A DNA stretch of 64,000 nucleotides from Synechococcus sp. Cruz-7E5 (lineage in GTDB: Bacteria > Cyanobacteriota > Cyanobacteriia > PCC-6307 > Cyanobiaceae). Position numbers and translations under genes: made by a program. Below are positions 36,164-41,336 of the stretch, piece by piece; position 1 is the first letter of the stretch; every line of letters begins with the position of its first letter. The DNA is taken from positions 1-64,000 of the forward strand of contig NZ_JAGQCE010000005.1 of the NCBI RefSeq assembly GCF_024345995.1, given 5' to 3'. The notes under the pieces were generated by a model. That model ran no database searches and had not been told where the DNA came from. It saw only the letters and a list, made by a program, of their open reading frames with translations.

Positions 36164-36666
36164 GCGGGATGATCCGCCGAGCGGGTCGGCTGCTGCTGGC
36201 ACTGAGCCTGGTGCTGGCTGGCCTGTTCGCGCTGGTGGCGCCAGCGACAGCCCAGCTGCACCAACACCCCAGCGAAACCGGCAGCCCGGTGCTGCGCAGC
36301 CTGGTGAGCGTGCGCGATCTCGATGATCAGGCCTGGCAGTTGGTGGCCTTTCGCGACGGACCGCCCGGAGCTGCCCTGCGCCTGCGGGTGGTGGGCTATC
36401 CCGGCAAGGTGCGGCTCGATCACCCCACGTCGCTGCAGGTGCGCTCGGGTCCGTTCCAGTGGCAGCTGGAGGATCTCACCCTCGAGAGCCAGGCATTGAG
36501 TAACGACGGCCGCTCCGCCGCCGCTGAATTCGATCTGAGCCCTTTGCTGGCCGAACTGAGCCAGAACCGTCCGCTGCGGCTGCGGCTGCCGGGGGTGTTC
36601 ACGGAGCTGCCGGTGCCTCCGTTCGTGGTGGCCGAGTGGCGCAGCCTGGTGAGAGCTCCGGCATGA
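36160..36666 (+). CDS. Exported DUF3122 family protein
   Basis: A 168-residue protein with a signal peptide (hydrophobic about 9-30, likely cleavage after ATAQ) and a domain matching the cyanobacterial DUF3122 family: LRSLVSVRDLDDQAWQLVAF, LRLRVVGYPGKVRLDHPT, AAEFDLSPLLAEL and the ending LPVPPFVVAEWRSL. Function unknown; location is periplasmic or lumenal. It overlaps GH116 upstream and ribD downstream by four bases each (both ATGA), so all three are translated as a coupled set. Confidence 0.87.
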   Translation: MSGMIRRAGRLLLALSLVLAGLFALVAPATAQLHQHPSETGSPVLRSLVSVRDLDDQAWQLVAFRDGPPGAALRLRVVGYPGKVRLDHPTSLQVRSGPFQWQLEDLTLESQALSNDGRSAAAEFDLSPLLAELSQNRPLRLRLPGVFTELPVPPFVVAEWRSLVRAPA

Positions 36667-37757
36667 GCAGGGGGTGCCCCTGGAGCACCTGGATGGAGCG
36701 GGCCCTCGGCCTGGCCGCCCTGGCGCAGGGTCGCACCAGCCCCAATCCCCTGGTGGGTGCCCTGGTGCTCGATGCCAGCGGCCTGCTGGTGGGGGAGGGC
36801 TTCCACGTCGCTGCCGGAATGCCCCACGCCGAGGTGGGAGCCCTGGCTCAGGCGGGAGATCGGGCCCGAGGGGGCACCCTGGTGGTGACCCTGGAGCCCT
36901 GCTGTCACCACGGCCGCACGCCCCCCTGCAGCGAGGCCGTGATCACCGCCGGGATCCGGCGGGTGATCGTGGCGATGGAAGACCCCGATCCGCGGGTGGC
37001 GGGCGAAGGCATCAAGGCATTGCGCCAGGCCGGGACGGAAGTGCTGGTGGGGGTGCGCCAGGCCGAGGCCCAGAACCTGAATGCCGCCTTCTGCCATCGG
37101 GTGTGCACCGGCCGGCCACTGGGGATCCTCAAGTGGGCGATGAGCGTGGACGGACGCACGGCCCTGCCCAACGGATCAAGCCAGTGGATCAGCGGGCCAG
37201 AATCGCGGCAGAGGGTGCACGAGCTGCGAGCGCGCTGCGATGCGGTGATCGTGGGCGGCGGCACCGTGCGCTCGGATGATCCCCTGCTCACCAGCCGGGG
37301 GCGGCGCGCGATCGAGCCGCTGCGGGTGGTGATCAGCCGCGGCCTGATCATGCCGGAGCGGGCCCAGCTCTGGGACCAGCGCGCGGCTCCCACCCTGGTG
37401 GCCCATGGGCCCGAGGCCCCCGAGCCAGCACGACAGCGACTGGATGGGCTGGGTGTGGAGCGGCTGGAGCTTGCCTGCTGCGAACCGCTGGAGCTGATGC
37501 AGGCCCTGGCCCGGAGGGGCTGCAACCAGGTGCTCTGGGAGTGCGGGCCAGAGCTGGCGGCAGCGGCGCTGCGCCAGGGTTGTGTACAGCGGCTGGTGGC
37601 GGTGGTGGCCCCGAAGCTGCTGGGGGGTATCGCCGCCCGCACACCGCTGGGGGATCTGCAGCTGAGCTCGATGGCGATGGCTCCCTCCTGGCGGGAGCTG
37701 GGGCTCAGCCGCTCGGGAGCCGATCTGATCTGGGAGCTGAACGGACATGACGGCTGA
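36663..37757 (+). CDS. ribD: Riboflavin biosynthesis deaminase/reductase RibD
   Basis: RibD deaminates and then reduces the pyrimidine intermediate of riboflavin synthesis. The 364-residue protein has a cytidine-deaminase-type zinc site (H55-A-E57 in GMPHAEVGAL, C80 and C89 in EPCCHHGRTPPC) and a C-terminal reductase domain (LKWAMSVDGRTAL, DAVIVGGGTVRSDDPLLT, VLWECGPELAAAAL). The ATG at 36663 overlaps the DUF3122 stop; an in-frame ATG nine codons earlier lies inside that gene. Riboflavin genes are split in this window (ribF at 26.2 kb). Confidence 0.96.
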   Translation: MSRGCPWSTWMERALGLAALAQGRTSPNPLVGALVLDASGLLVGEGFHVAAGMPHAEVGALAQAGDRARGGTLVVTLEPCCHHGRTPPCSEAVITAGIRRVIVAMEDPDPRVAGEGIKALRQAGTEVLVGVRQAEAQNLNAAFCHRVCTGRPLGILKWAMSVDGRTALPNGSSQWISGPESRQRVHELRARCDAVIVGGGTVRSDDPLLTSRGRRAIEPLRVVISRGLIMPERAQLWDQRAAPTLVAHGPEAPEPARQRLDGLGVERLELACCEPLELMQALARRGCNQVLWECGPELAAAALRQGCVQRLVAVVAPKLLGGIAARTPLGDLQLSSMAMAPSWRELGLSRSGADLIWELNGHDG

Positions 37758-37789
37758 GGGCATTGGACGACCGTCCTTAGAGTCCGGCC

Positions 37790-38824
37790 ATGCTCAATCC
37801 CCTCCAGCTGAGCCTGCCGATTCCCCTGCTGGGGATCCTGCTGGCGGCAGGAGCCTGGCTGAGCCTGCAACTGGTTGGCAAGCGGCTTCCCAGTGAATCG
37901 CTGGGTCGCGCCCTGGTGCTGCGCAGCCGCCTCAGCCTCACGCTCACGCTCCTGGTCAGTTTCATCGCCTGGTGGCTGCTGACCCTGCTGGGCCCAGAGC
38001 TGCTGCCCATGGGCATGGGCAGCATCGACGTGCGCAATGAGCTGATCTTCATCGGCCTGATCTGGACGCTGCTGCGCTGGAAGGGCGAGATCTGGCGCAA
38101 GGCCGACACCTACTCCCAGCAGGTGTTCCCGAATCTTCCCCAGCGGGAGCGCCTGTACCTCTTCGATCTCAGCGACAAGCTGCTCACGGTGCTGGTGATG
38201 GTGATCATCAGCCTGGAGCTGCTGCGGCTGCTGGGCACCCCCACCGCCCTGCTGGCCACCGCCGGTGGCTTCGGTGCCGCTGCCCTGGGTTTCGGCGCCC
38301 GCACGATCGTGGAGAATGGACTGAGCGGCATCAGCCTTTACATCAACAGACCCTTCGTGGTGGGAGATTTCATCCGGATCCCCGCAGAAGATGTCAACGG
38401 CACCGTGCAAACAATCAGCTGGTTCTACACGGAGTTGCGTGATCCGGAGCGGCAGCCGATCTTCATCCCCAATTCGATCTTCACCGTGAAGCCGATCATC
38501 AACGTCGCCCGGATCGACAGCCGGCGGGTCTGGATCGACTTCGGCCTGCGTTACGACGACCGGGCCGCGATCGAGCCCATCATCGCCGAGCTGCGTGAGC
38601 AGCTGGATTCGAACACCAGTATTGATCACGACAAGGCAGCGGCGGTGCATTTCGTTGGCTATGGCGAATCGAGTCTCAACCTGCGCCTGCTCTGCTACGT
38701 GGCCGGTGGCGACATCCAGGCCGCCTGGGATCTGCAACAGGAGCTTTTGTTGCGCGTCGGTGAGGTGGTGGAGAAGCATCAGGCGGGAATGCCCTTCCCC
38801 ACGCGCAGCCTGATCAGGGGCTGA
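37790..38824 (+). CDS. Mechanosensitive ion channel family protein (MscS type), small
   Basis: A 344-residue membrane protein with an N-terminal helix, a second helix pair at about 42-70 and pore-region segments from about 120. The MscS core is LLATAGGFGAAALGFGARTI (about 150-169, the Gly/Ala pore helix), then VENGLSGISLYINRPFVVGD, RIPAEDVNGTVQTISWFYT and the beta-domain block IFIPNSIFTVKPIIN. It should act as a turgor-sensitive solute channel. Different enough in length and sequence from the 582-residue channel at 3.7 kb to be a separate subfamily. The PGM1-like ligase gene begins 8 bases downstream. Confidence 0.92.
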   Translation: MLNPLQLSLPIPLLGILLAAGAWLSLQLVGKRLPSESLGRALVLRSRLSLTLTLLVSFIAWWLLTLLGPELLPMGMGSIDVRNELIFIGLIWTLLRWKGEIWRKADTYSQQVFPNLPQRERLYLFDLSDKLLTVLVMVIISLELLRLLGTPTALLATAGGFGAAALGFGARTIVENGLSGISLYINRPFVVGDFIRIPAEDVNGTVQTISWFYTELRDPERQPIFIPNSIFTVKPIINVARIDSRRVWIDFGLRYDDRAAIEPIIAELREQLDSNTSIDHDKAAAVHFVGYGESSLNLRLLCYVAGGDIQAAWDLQQELLLRVGEVVEKHQAGMPFPTRSLIRG

Positions 38825-38831
38825 TTTCACC

Positions 38832-40355
38832 ATGGCCCTCAGTTTCAGCGAACTCCAGCGACAGTTGCGGCCTGAATGGGGTGAGTTCCATCCAGGCAGC
38901 GGCCAGAACAGTGGCGGCGATAGCGGCAACGAGGGCTGGGATCTGCTGGTGGTGCCCTCGCTCAGCCTCGATCACCATCAGATGGCACTGGTGACCGGGG
39001 CCCACCACTACGAGGAACGGCAGCTGTTCTCCCTGATCCGGTTGCGCGACCCCGGCGTGCGGGCGGTCTACATCACCAGCAAGCTGCTGCCTGAACTGGT
39101 GGTGGACTCCGTGCTGGAGCTGCTGCCGGGGGTGCCCGCCTCCCACGCCCGCCGGCGCCTGCATCTTTTCGACACGGACGACGCCTCCAATCGGCCCCTG
39201 ACCGAGAAGCTGCTGGAGCGGCCGGCGCTGCTGGGGCGCATCCGCGAGCGCCTGCGGCCCGGGCGCAGCTTCATGACCTGCTTCAACGTGACGGAGCAGG
39301 AGAAGCAACTCTCCGAGCGCCTGCAGGTGCCGTTGCTGGGCACTGATCCAGCCCTGAGTCACTGGGGCGGCAAAGCCGGCAGCCGCGAGCTGTTCCGCCG
39401 CTGCGCTGTGCCCCATCCGCCCGGCAGCGCCCTGGTCCATGACCTCGACGCCCTCGCCGAAGTCGCGGCCGAGCTGTGGGAGGCCAACCCTGAGCTGAGC
39501 CGGGTGGTGGTGAAGCTGGACCAGGGATTCAGCGGCGAAGGCAATGCTCCCCTGGAGCTGGGGCCCCTGCAACTGTCGGAGCTCAGCGGCCGGGAGCGCC
39601 GAGCTCGCCTGCGCGAGGCCCTCGAGACCCTGGCGATGCCACCACCCCAGTGGCGCCAGTTGCTGCAGGAGCAGGGGGCCCTGGTGGAGGCCTGGCTGCT
39701 GGGGGGCGACGAGCTGGCCTCACCGAGCGTGCAGGGGATGATCCACCCAGGCGGGGCGGTGGAGGTGCTCTCCACCCATGAGCAGGTACTCGGCGGTGTG
39801 AGCGGACAGACCTACCTGGGTTGCAGCTTTCCCGCCCAGACGCAGTACCGGGCCGAGCTGATGCGTCACGGGCTGGCGGTGGGTCAGGCCCTGGCGGCAG
39901 AGGGCGCCCTGGAGCGCTACGCGGTGGATTTCGTGGCGCGCCGCTTCGGGCAGCACTGGGATCTGCAGGCGATCGAGGTGAACCTGCGCAAGGGCGGCAC
40001 CACCCACCCCTACATGGCCCTGCGCTATGCCACCAACGGCCGCATCGATGGCGCCAGCGGCCTGTTCCGCTCCCCCACCGGCCAATCGCTGTTCTATGCC
40101 GCCACGGATAACCTCTGCGACCCGAGGCTGCGGGGTCTGCTGCCGGTCGACCTGATCGACATCGTGGCCGCCGCCGGGCTGCACTTCGACCCGGCCGAAC
40201 TGCACGGCAGCGTGTTCCACCTGCTGGGCTGCCTCTCGGAATTCGGCAAGCTGGGCATGACCTGCATCGGCCGCAGTCCCGAAGAAGCTGAACGCATCTA
40301 CGCGGCCACCAGGGAGCGACTGATTGCGGCGGCCGAGGAGCTGAAGCAGGCCTGA
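38832..40355 (+). CDS. PGM1-like ATP-grasp peptide ligase homologue
   Basis: A 507-residue soluble protein annotated by analogy with PGM1, the ATP-grasp ligase of pheganomycin synthesis, which couples a nonproteinogenic amino acid to a peptide. The N-terminal part (about 1-160) is a pre-ATP-grasp fold with LLVVPSLSLDHHQ. The ATP-grasp core includes RELFRRCAVPHPPGS, RVVVKLDQGFSGEGNA, ALVEAWL, YAVDFVARRFGQHWDLQAIEVNLRKGGTTHP, whose acidic and Asn residues fit Mg-ATP binding. The C-terminal domain shows CLSEFGKLGMTCIGRSPEEAE. The substrate is unknown. It follows the MscS channel by 7 bases and may be cotranscribed. Confidence 0.78.
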   Translation: MALSFSELQRQLRPEWGEFHPGSGQNSGGDSGNEGWDLLVVPSLSLDHHQMALVTGAHHYEERQLFSLIRLRDPGVRAVYITSKLLPELVVDSVLELLPGVPASHARRRLHLFDTDDASNRPLTEKLLERPALLGRIRERLRPGRSFMTCFNVTEQEKQLSERLQVPLLGTDPALSHWGGKAGSRELFRRCAVPHPPGSALVHDLDALAEVAAELWEANPELSRVVVKLDQGFSGEGNAPLELGPLQLSELSGRERRARLREALETLAMPPPQWRQLLQEQGALVEAWLLGGDELASPSVQGMIHPGGAVEVLSTHEQVLGGVSGQTYLGCSFPAQTQYRAELMRHGLAVGQALAAEGALERYAVDFVARRFGQHWDLQAIEVNLRKGGTTHPYMALRYATNGRIDGASGLFRSPTGQSLFYAATDNLCDPRLRGLLPVDLIDIVAAAGLHFDPAELHGSVFHLLGCLSEFGKLGMTCIGRSPEEAERIYAATRERLIAAAEELKQA

Positions 40356-40425
40356 GCAGATCCGCCACTGACCACCACAACGGGCTCACCTGGGCTCCAG
40401 GATGAAAGGCCTCTGCTGCCCTGCC

Positions 40426-40704
40426 ATGGAAGCCCGCTGGAACGACGCCGTGATCGCCAGCAGTGACGACATCGTGAAACTGGAAGGCAACGCCTACTTC
40501 CCCGCCGAGGCGTTGGTCAGAGAGCACCTGCGGCCTTCCTCACATCGCAGCGTCTGTGGCTGGAAGGGCGAAGCCCACTACTACGACGTGGTGGTAGGGG
40601 ATCAGGTGAACGTGAACGCCGCCTGGTTCTATCCCGAACCCAAGCAGGCCGCCAGTGAAATCAAGGGCCGGGTGGCCTTCTGGAAGGGCGTGCGCGTGAG
40701 CTGA
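40426..40704 (+). CDS. DUF427 family protein, copy 1
   Basis: A 92-residue protein consisting of one DUF427 domain: MEARWNDAVIASSDDIVKLE, YFPAEALVREHL, VCGWKGEAHYYDVVVGD, AAWFYPEPKQAASEIKGRVAFW. DUF427 is a small beta fold with the invariant WKG and YYDV segments and no settled activity. I use the ATG at 40426 by family N-terminus; an ATG at 40402 adds eight residues including two Cys. A two-domain-length relative lies 3.6 kb downstream. Confidence 0.85.
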   Translation: MEARWNDAVIASSDDIVKLEGNAYFPAEALVREHLRPSSHRSVCGWKGEAHYYDVVVGDQVNVNAAWFYPEPKQAASEIKGRVAFWKGVRVS

Positions 40705-40712
40705 TTCCGCCC

Positions 40713-41336
40713 TCAGACCAGCAGCGGCTCCGGCTGGGGCAGTCCGTTGGCGCCATAGGCACGCTCCAGCACCAGCTCCCGCCCCGGTTGGGGCCGCCAG
40801 CACAGCCTCACCGCCAGGGGGTCTCCAAAGCGGCGCTCCAGGGCGGTGGTGAGGCTGAGATCGTCCGTGAGCTGCCAGCAGCCGAGGCCTGAACCATCGC
40901 CACCCGGCAGAACAGTTGCCCGAAGGGGCGCCGCCGGAGCCGGATCCACTACCCCGGGGCGGGCCTCCACCACCACCACCACGCTCTCGAGCCGCTCGGC
41001 GCCGTGACGCACCACCAGCCGCCGCCGCCGCTGGCCATCCACCAGGCACAGCTCCATCACCGCCGGCCAGGGACCAGTCTTGTCGGGGCCGAGGCTCCAG
41101 TGTCCATCGGGGCTGATCGCCATCAAGGCCGGCGGCTCGGCGAAGCGCATCGTCGCCACCTTGCCGGTGTTCAGGTAAGTGAGAGCCGCTTCGATCTGGC
41201 CGTCCGTCTCCCGCACATGCAGGCGTGTGCCGAAGCGCTCGCTCTCGAGGCCCTGGCTATCGAGGCGAATGAAGCTGCCTTCCCAGTGGCCGGCATTGCG
41301 CGCCAGCAGGGTGGCGCGGCGATCGAAGCTGGGCAC
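40713..41336 (-). CDS. DUF3598-like lipocalin-type protein
   Basis: A 207-residue soluble protein of mainly beta character. It begins with LLARNAGHWEGSFIRLDSQG, typical of the cyanobacterial DUF3598 family, followed by LTYLNTGKVATMRF, DGHWSLGPDKTGPWPAVMEL and RRRLVVRHGAERLESVVVV. DUF3598 has a lipocalin-like fold; ligand and function are unknown. Family assignment is from recall. It converges on the DUF427 gene with an 8-base gap and is 46 bases downstream of the AI-2E-type transporter gene on the same strand. Confidence 0.65.
   Translation of the reverse strand: MPSFDRRATLLARNAGHWEGSFIRLDSQGLESERFGTRLHVRETDGQIEAALTYLNTGKVATMRFAEPPALMAISPDGHWSLGPDKTGPWPAVMELCLVDGQRRRRLVVRHGAERLESVVVVVEARPGVVDPAPAAPLRATVLPGGDGSGLGCWQLTDDLSLTTALERRFGDPLAVRLCWRPQPGRELVLERAYGANGLPQPEPLLV

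Follow-up and report, generated by a model that had tools for sequence, protein, structure and literature searches.

BesA, an L-propargylglycine-L-glutamate ligase of Streptantibioticus cattleyicolor (PDB 8yi6; NF042917), acts on the gamma-carboxyl of glutamate and is the closest solved relative of an ATP-grasp ligase predicted in the DNA of Synechococcus sp. Cruz-7E5 analysed here, a stretch of 64,000 nucleotides hereafter referred to as the window. PGM1, the peptide ligase of pheganomycin synthesis according to the accessible part of its description (PMC8939145), has the PGM1_C domain in common with the window ligase, a likeness known from the domain model and not from the PGM1 sequence. No published function for the cyanobacterial gene was found in the titles and abstract openings searched.

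In a survey of ten cyanobacteria, followed here in its accessible text, gamma-glutamyl dipeptides were found in nine strains and not in Calothrix PCC 7507, and no maker was assigned to them; the authors proposed an alternative, unknown gamma-glutamyltransferase (PMC3826126). According to the same text, the dipeptides are present in Leptolyngbya PCC 7376, from which GGT is absent, and in Halothece PCC 7418, the sole GGT form of which is without catalytic threonines and possibly inactive (PMC3826126). The nitrate-free medium used for Calothrix PCC 7507 also served for Nostoc PCC 7107, which nevertheless contained dipeptides (PMC3826126), so that the medium alone does not explain the result for Calothrix. 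In Synechococcus elongatus PCC 11801 dipeptide levels climb overnight and are down again by midday, and the available portion of that report names no enzyme for them (PMC7644974). The ligase described here is strictly conserved in many cyanobacteria; if it makes these dipeptides, it would fill an open metabolic gap, and if it does not, the gene would still indicate an amide product shared across the class Cyanobacteriia.

The features of the locus are collected in the table below. A search of the organism's own genome with the ligase returned a single match. PGM1_C (PF18105) was matched with an E-value of 2.4e-16 (59.4 bits against a gathering cut-off of 22.5) and the Pfam model ATP-grasp_IQCH with 3.6e-16 (59.7 bits, cut-off 27), which bears out the preliminary description of the gene product as a PGM1-like ATP-grasp ligase; the Pfam model PreAtp-grasp scored 14.1 bits, under its cut-off of 27.5. 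IQCH is a eukaryotic protein, and the fit of an IQCH-like ATP-grasp model to a bacterial ligase family above cut-off hints at a common origin.

Coordinates of the ligase gene, its sequence features and its neighbours in the window
Feature	Position	Strand	Remarks
ribD	36663..37757	+	363.8 bits against 156.35; ATG start (listed ORF opens at 36636); local neighbour
MscS-type channel gene	37790..38824	+	three MS_channel Pfam domains; local neighbour
Ligase ORF	38832..40355	+	ATG to TGA; 507 aa; predicted PGM1_C/BesA-like ATP-grasp carboxylate-amine ligase; Pfam and PDB 8yi6 match
Best ATP-grasp_IQCH stretch	39360..39626	+	residues 177-265; holds invariant K181 and K228
E286 codon	39687..39689	+	invariant in 77/77 cyanobacterial and 82/82 aligned sequences
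Motif D366 ... E382-x-N384-x-R386, read as metal-binding	39927..39989	+	invariant in 77/77 and in 82/82, including BesA
K387-P393	39990..40010	+	G388-P393 invariant in the cyanobacterial group, partly different in BesA
PGM1_C domain	40149..40307	+	residues 440-492
DUF427 protein	40402..40704	+	Pfam; local neighbour

Comparison of the ligase gene with that of locus L034 gave 36, 24 and 108 differences at the first, second and third codon positions, respectively. Differences at the third position exceeded those at the first and second among five close relatives, indicating a protein-coding frame, as expected of a real gene. An antisense ORF of 252 codons (38814-39572) overlaps the ligase ORF, and a scan of positions 37700-40800 for promoters and terminators found none. 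An AlphaFold2 prediction from a shallow alignment of 16 rows was unsuccessful, at a mean pLDDT of 41.6. The predicted ATP-grasp fold is supported by the match to the solved BesA structure, obtained with an E-value of 1e-39 (4e-42 with a 16-sequence profile) and aligning residues 58-493.

Catalytic residues were examined in an alignment of 77 cyanobacterial copies, comprising the window ligase, 16 of the 17 loci of one set (L045, cut at a contig end, was left out) and 60 further loci, and in one of 82 sequences to which the homologues of Gemmatirosa, Nonomuraea, Streptomyces NBC_01237 and Robbsia and BesA of S. cattleyicolor were added. No variation at all was found at 96 positions across the 77 copies, and K181, K228, E286, H316, Q318, D366, E382, N384, R386 and H392 were invariant in the five outside relatives as well. 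K181 and K228 are taken here to be the ATP-binding lysines, E286 the acidic residue of the ATP site, and D366, E382 and N384 the metal ligands, with R386 in the same motif. The lysines and the acidic residue that mark the superfamily are thus presumably in place in every cyanobacterial copy, as are the ligands of the D ... E-x-N pattern in all the aligned sequences, and the loss of metal-binding residues that had been set as a refuting sign was not seen in the alignment. Since these putative ATP and metal ligands are invariant even in the outside relatives, the ligase is likely to be catalytically active. The adjoining K387-P393 stretch possibly lies on the substrate side.

The preliminary description had placed the gene directly behind an MscS channel gene and about 1 kb behind ribD, and on this part the ORF coordinates, the Pfam matches and the RibD scores agree: the gap to the channel gene is 7 bases (38825-38831) and the distance from the end of ribD to the ligase start about 1,075 bases. 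The neighbours scanned in the window were RibD, MscS, DUF427, DUF3598 and an AI-2E-type transporter; biosynthetic neighbours of the pheganomycin type were absent among these five, as had been noted earlier. At 30 Cyanobiaceae loci the same five were found near the ligase 12, 11, 11, 9 and 8 times, respectively, and at none of 47 loci outside the Cyanobiaceae, where the stretches examined mostly extended about 7-8 kb to each side. Their absence there shows that the MscS/ribD arrangement is a local gene order. The 11 loci linked to MscS carry ligases 75-100% identical to that of the window; no MscS match was found at L035 (91% ligase identity) or at further Cyanobiaceae loci with ligases of 68-76% identity. 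Outside the Cyanobiaceae, no cluster of neighbouring proteins was met at more than 6 of the 47 loci, and most neighbours were confined to one or a few of them, a comparison of recurrence and not of identities. A natural-product cluster was also considered and rejected, as no such neighbours occur among the scanned window genes and neighbours elsewhere mostly vary by locus.

At 13 other Cyanobiaceae loci (including L062 and L065) a long membrane protein is encoded upstream of the ligase on the same strand, which by eye looks like a 7TM-HD phosphohydrolase.

The ligase was detected (E-value of 1e-10 or lower) in 257 of the 388 Cyanobacteriia genomes drawn; a hand tally of this draw by family gave 15/64 for the Cyanobiaceae and 242/324 for the others. 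Two families were without it (f4, 0/8; f13, 0/6), which may correspond to the deep-branching Thermostichaceae and Gloeobacteraceae, and family f23 was patchy. A separate draw of the Cyanobiaceae gave 59/161, the genomes without the ligase measuring 1.3-2.6 Mb (among 20 listed) and those with it 1.5-4.0 Mb. Among genomes of family f32 at least 98% complete the ligase was present in 193 of 196 (absent in G618, G640 and G143), and in the order containing f32, a set that overlaps this count, in 343 of 390. Corresponding values were 42/44 in the family of G012, 24/26 in the family of G190 and 1/2 in the genus of G143. Of 40 Cyanobacteriia, 32 have the PGM1_C domain, as against none of 58 members from elsewhere in the phylum. 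Most genomes gave one ligase match each. The earlier view of a conserved orphan ligase holds, with the presumed catalytic residues retained.

Some irregular copies were met in the course of the survey. One Cyanobiaceae genome holds, besides an intact ligase elsewhere, a second, broken and distant copy (G332:C1:501137-502172; 38-45% identity) with two stops inside one piece. In another (G495:C1:1123587-1125079) the ligase is split over two matches that overlap and lie in different frames, which may reflect a frameshift in the assembly. The record that holds a contig with a 76% identical ligase (L043) bears the title Bifidobacterium breve and is probably a mislabelled metagenome bin.

It is very probable, from the family membership and the conserved residues, that the protein is an ATP-grasp ligase that would activate a carboxylate as an acyl phosphate using MgATP and couple it to an amine with formation of an amide bond, presumably in the cytosol. 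With 96 invariant residues and no constant partner gene, it looks like a stand-alone metabolic enzyme, and its distribution and gene order make it probable, with somewhat less assurance than for the chemistry, that it works alone in primary or storage metabolism, outside any biosynthetic cluster. As to the substrates, the ligase has a glutamate ligase, BesA, as its nearest solved relative, and it was therefore asked whether the gene tracks the gamma-glutamyl dipeptides. The substrates would then be L-glutamate, joined through its gamma-carboxyl, and a free amino acid, in most cases a hydrophobic one, and the product the cyanobacterial gamma-glutamyl dipeptide pool that accumulates at night in Synechococcus elongatus.

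Seven of the ten surveyed strains were matched to genomes (PCC 7002, 6712 and 9802 were left out), all matches being presumptive, with GC content and GGT type among the criteria. The single GGT of G618 lacks the T-[TS]-H motif (its aligned stretch starts GGTVYLAAADGD), and the GC content of this genome is 41.4% (11 samples, 31.0 to 44.7%); G615 has two GGTs with the motif and a GC content of 40.0%. On account of the GGT without the motif and the GC content, G618 appears to fit Calothrix PCC 7507 better than G615; a published genome table, going by its row order, seems to give 42.2% GC and no plasmid for this strain (PMC4549288). The ligase is absent from G618, one of only three such genomes among the 196 of f32. 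It is present in the genomes presumed to be Leptolyngbya 7376 (G781), Pleurocapsa 7327 (G896), Geitlerinema 7407 (G018), Nostoc 7107 (G691, GC from 1 kb only) and S. elongatus 6301 (G031), and the PGM1_C domain is present in an S. elongatus control genome. No ligase match was obtained in G788, presumed to be Halothece PCC 7418 (GC 43.4%, 5 samples), and the ligase is likewise absent from G327, presumed to be Dactylococcopsis salina PCC 8305, which lies outside the survey. Hence six of the seven matched strains agree with the ligase as the source of the dipeptides and one contradicts it. With two matched strains without the gene and one without dipeptides, agreement at Calothrix alone is expected by chance in 2 of 7 cases, and the strain pattern is a lead, not proof. 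As the Halothece-fitting genome is without the ligase, yet dipeptides are reported, the ligase cannot account for all of them and may contribute none.

These observations are circumstantially consistent with a gamma-glutamyl-amino-acid ligase feeding the cyanobacterial dipeptides, a tentative reading to which a probability of roughly 0.3 is assigned. The chief alternative, held at about even odds, is an active ATP-grasp amide ligase that takes other substrates and makes some other widely shared metabolite, the dipeptides arising from a side activity of GshA, from GGT or from another enzyme. BesA keeps 51 of the 96 group-invariant residues against 94 in Gemmatirosa, so that the group has its own strict set, a point which together with the Halothece-fitting genome speaks for other substrates; GshA- and GshB-dependent products are also on record for Synechocystis in the accessible part of one report (PMC10295655). 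An intact GGT nevertheless fails to account for two of the ten strains (PCC 7376 and 7418), while the ligase fails for one of the seven matched. GshA, moreover, would be expected in Calothrix PCC 7507 too, where dipeptides were not detected, and no neighbour gene points to a different substrate. Passage of ATP-grasp_IQCH over its Pfam cut-off might be taken to suggest a protein-modifying enzyme or a non-catalytic binding protein; this is improbable, as the putative ATP and metal ligands are kept in all 77 copies and are common to the small-molecule ligase BesA.

The preliminary description favoured a peptide-like compatible solute or other osmotic metabolite tied to the MscS channel. The channel gene does lie immediately upstream on the same strand, and 11 of the Cyanobiaceae loci have MscS in the vicinity of the ligase. 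Conserved linkage across Synechococcus and Cyanobium, which had been set beforehand as the test of that proposal, nevertheless failed, being seen at only those 11 of the 30 loci, and none of the 47 stretches examined outside the Cyanobiaceae held the channel; the ligase is retained in most non-Cyanobiaceae genomes whatever the neighbours, and no tested evidence favours a compatible solute. An osmotic operon with MscS is rejected on these linkage counts, the osmotic context is not upheld, and an osmotic product is considered very unlikely.

The gamma-glutamyl ligase in its strongest form, as the main dipeptide synthetase of cyanobacteria supplying a night store of hydrophobic amino acids for use by day, is doubtful, slightly more so than a contribution to the pool. 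If it were the main synthetase, the dipeptides would represent a store of nitrogen and amino acids comparable to cyanophycin, one that many picocyanobacteria have lost.

Among the other known proteins, the structures 8ynd/8ynq of the PDB ('ATP-grasp peptide ligase') formed the second match (E-value 2.6e-4, residues 119-285), far weaker than BesA and absent at an E-value of 1 or lower in the profile search. Distant relatives of the ligase occur on six plasmid records, and of 11 stretches in viral contigs that fit a pattern none proved to be a true relative. WP_320534214.1 of Robbsia andropogonis ('Peptide ligase PGM1-related protein'), encoded on a plasmid, is 26.9% identical over 92% of the query, and unlike the window ligase has amidinotransferase, aldehyde dehydrogenase and SDR genes as neighbours; this stretch of plasmid p3 (L120:5703-12051), which also holds a SIS gene, is perhaps a small biosynthetic cluster. 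The homologue of Gemmatirosa kalamazoonensis (plasmid 1, L116), though from outside the phylum, is 45.3% identical over 98%, is placed by a quick tree as the sister of the cyanobacterial copies and has no informative neighbour among the five scanned. Of the 96 group-invariant residues, for which the Gemmatirosa and BesA values are given above, Nonomuraea keeps 72, Streptomyces NBC_01237 65 and Robbsia 59.

BesA itself belongs to the same family over nearly the full length and has the putative catalytic residues in common with the window ligase. It is about 32% identical to it, and the window ligase scores 141.9 bits against the cut-off of 750 for the BesA equivalog and so falls outside it; bes-type neighbours are absent among the scanned window genes. 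Judged from the alignment, the cyanobacterial ligases form a tight group. They depart from BesA at 45 of the 96 positions, with D426 to R, K473 to F and T390 to P among the changes, and some of these 45 positions may border the substrate site.
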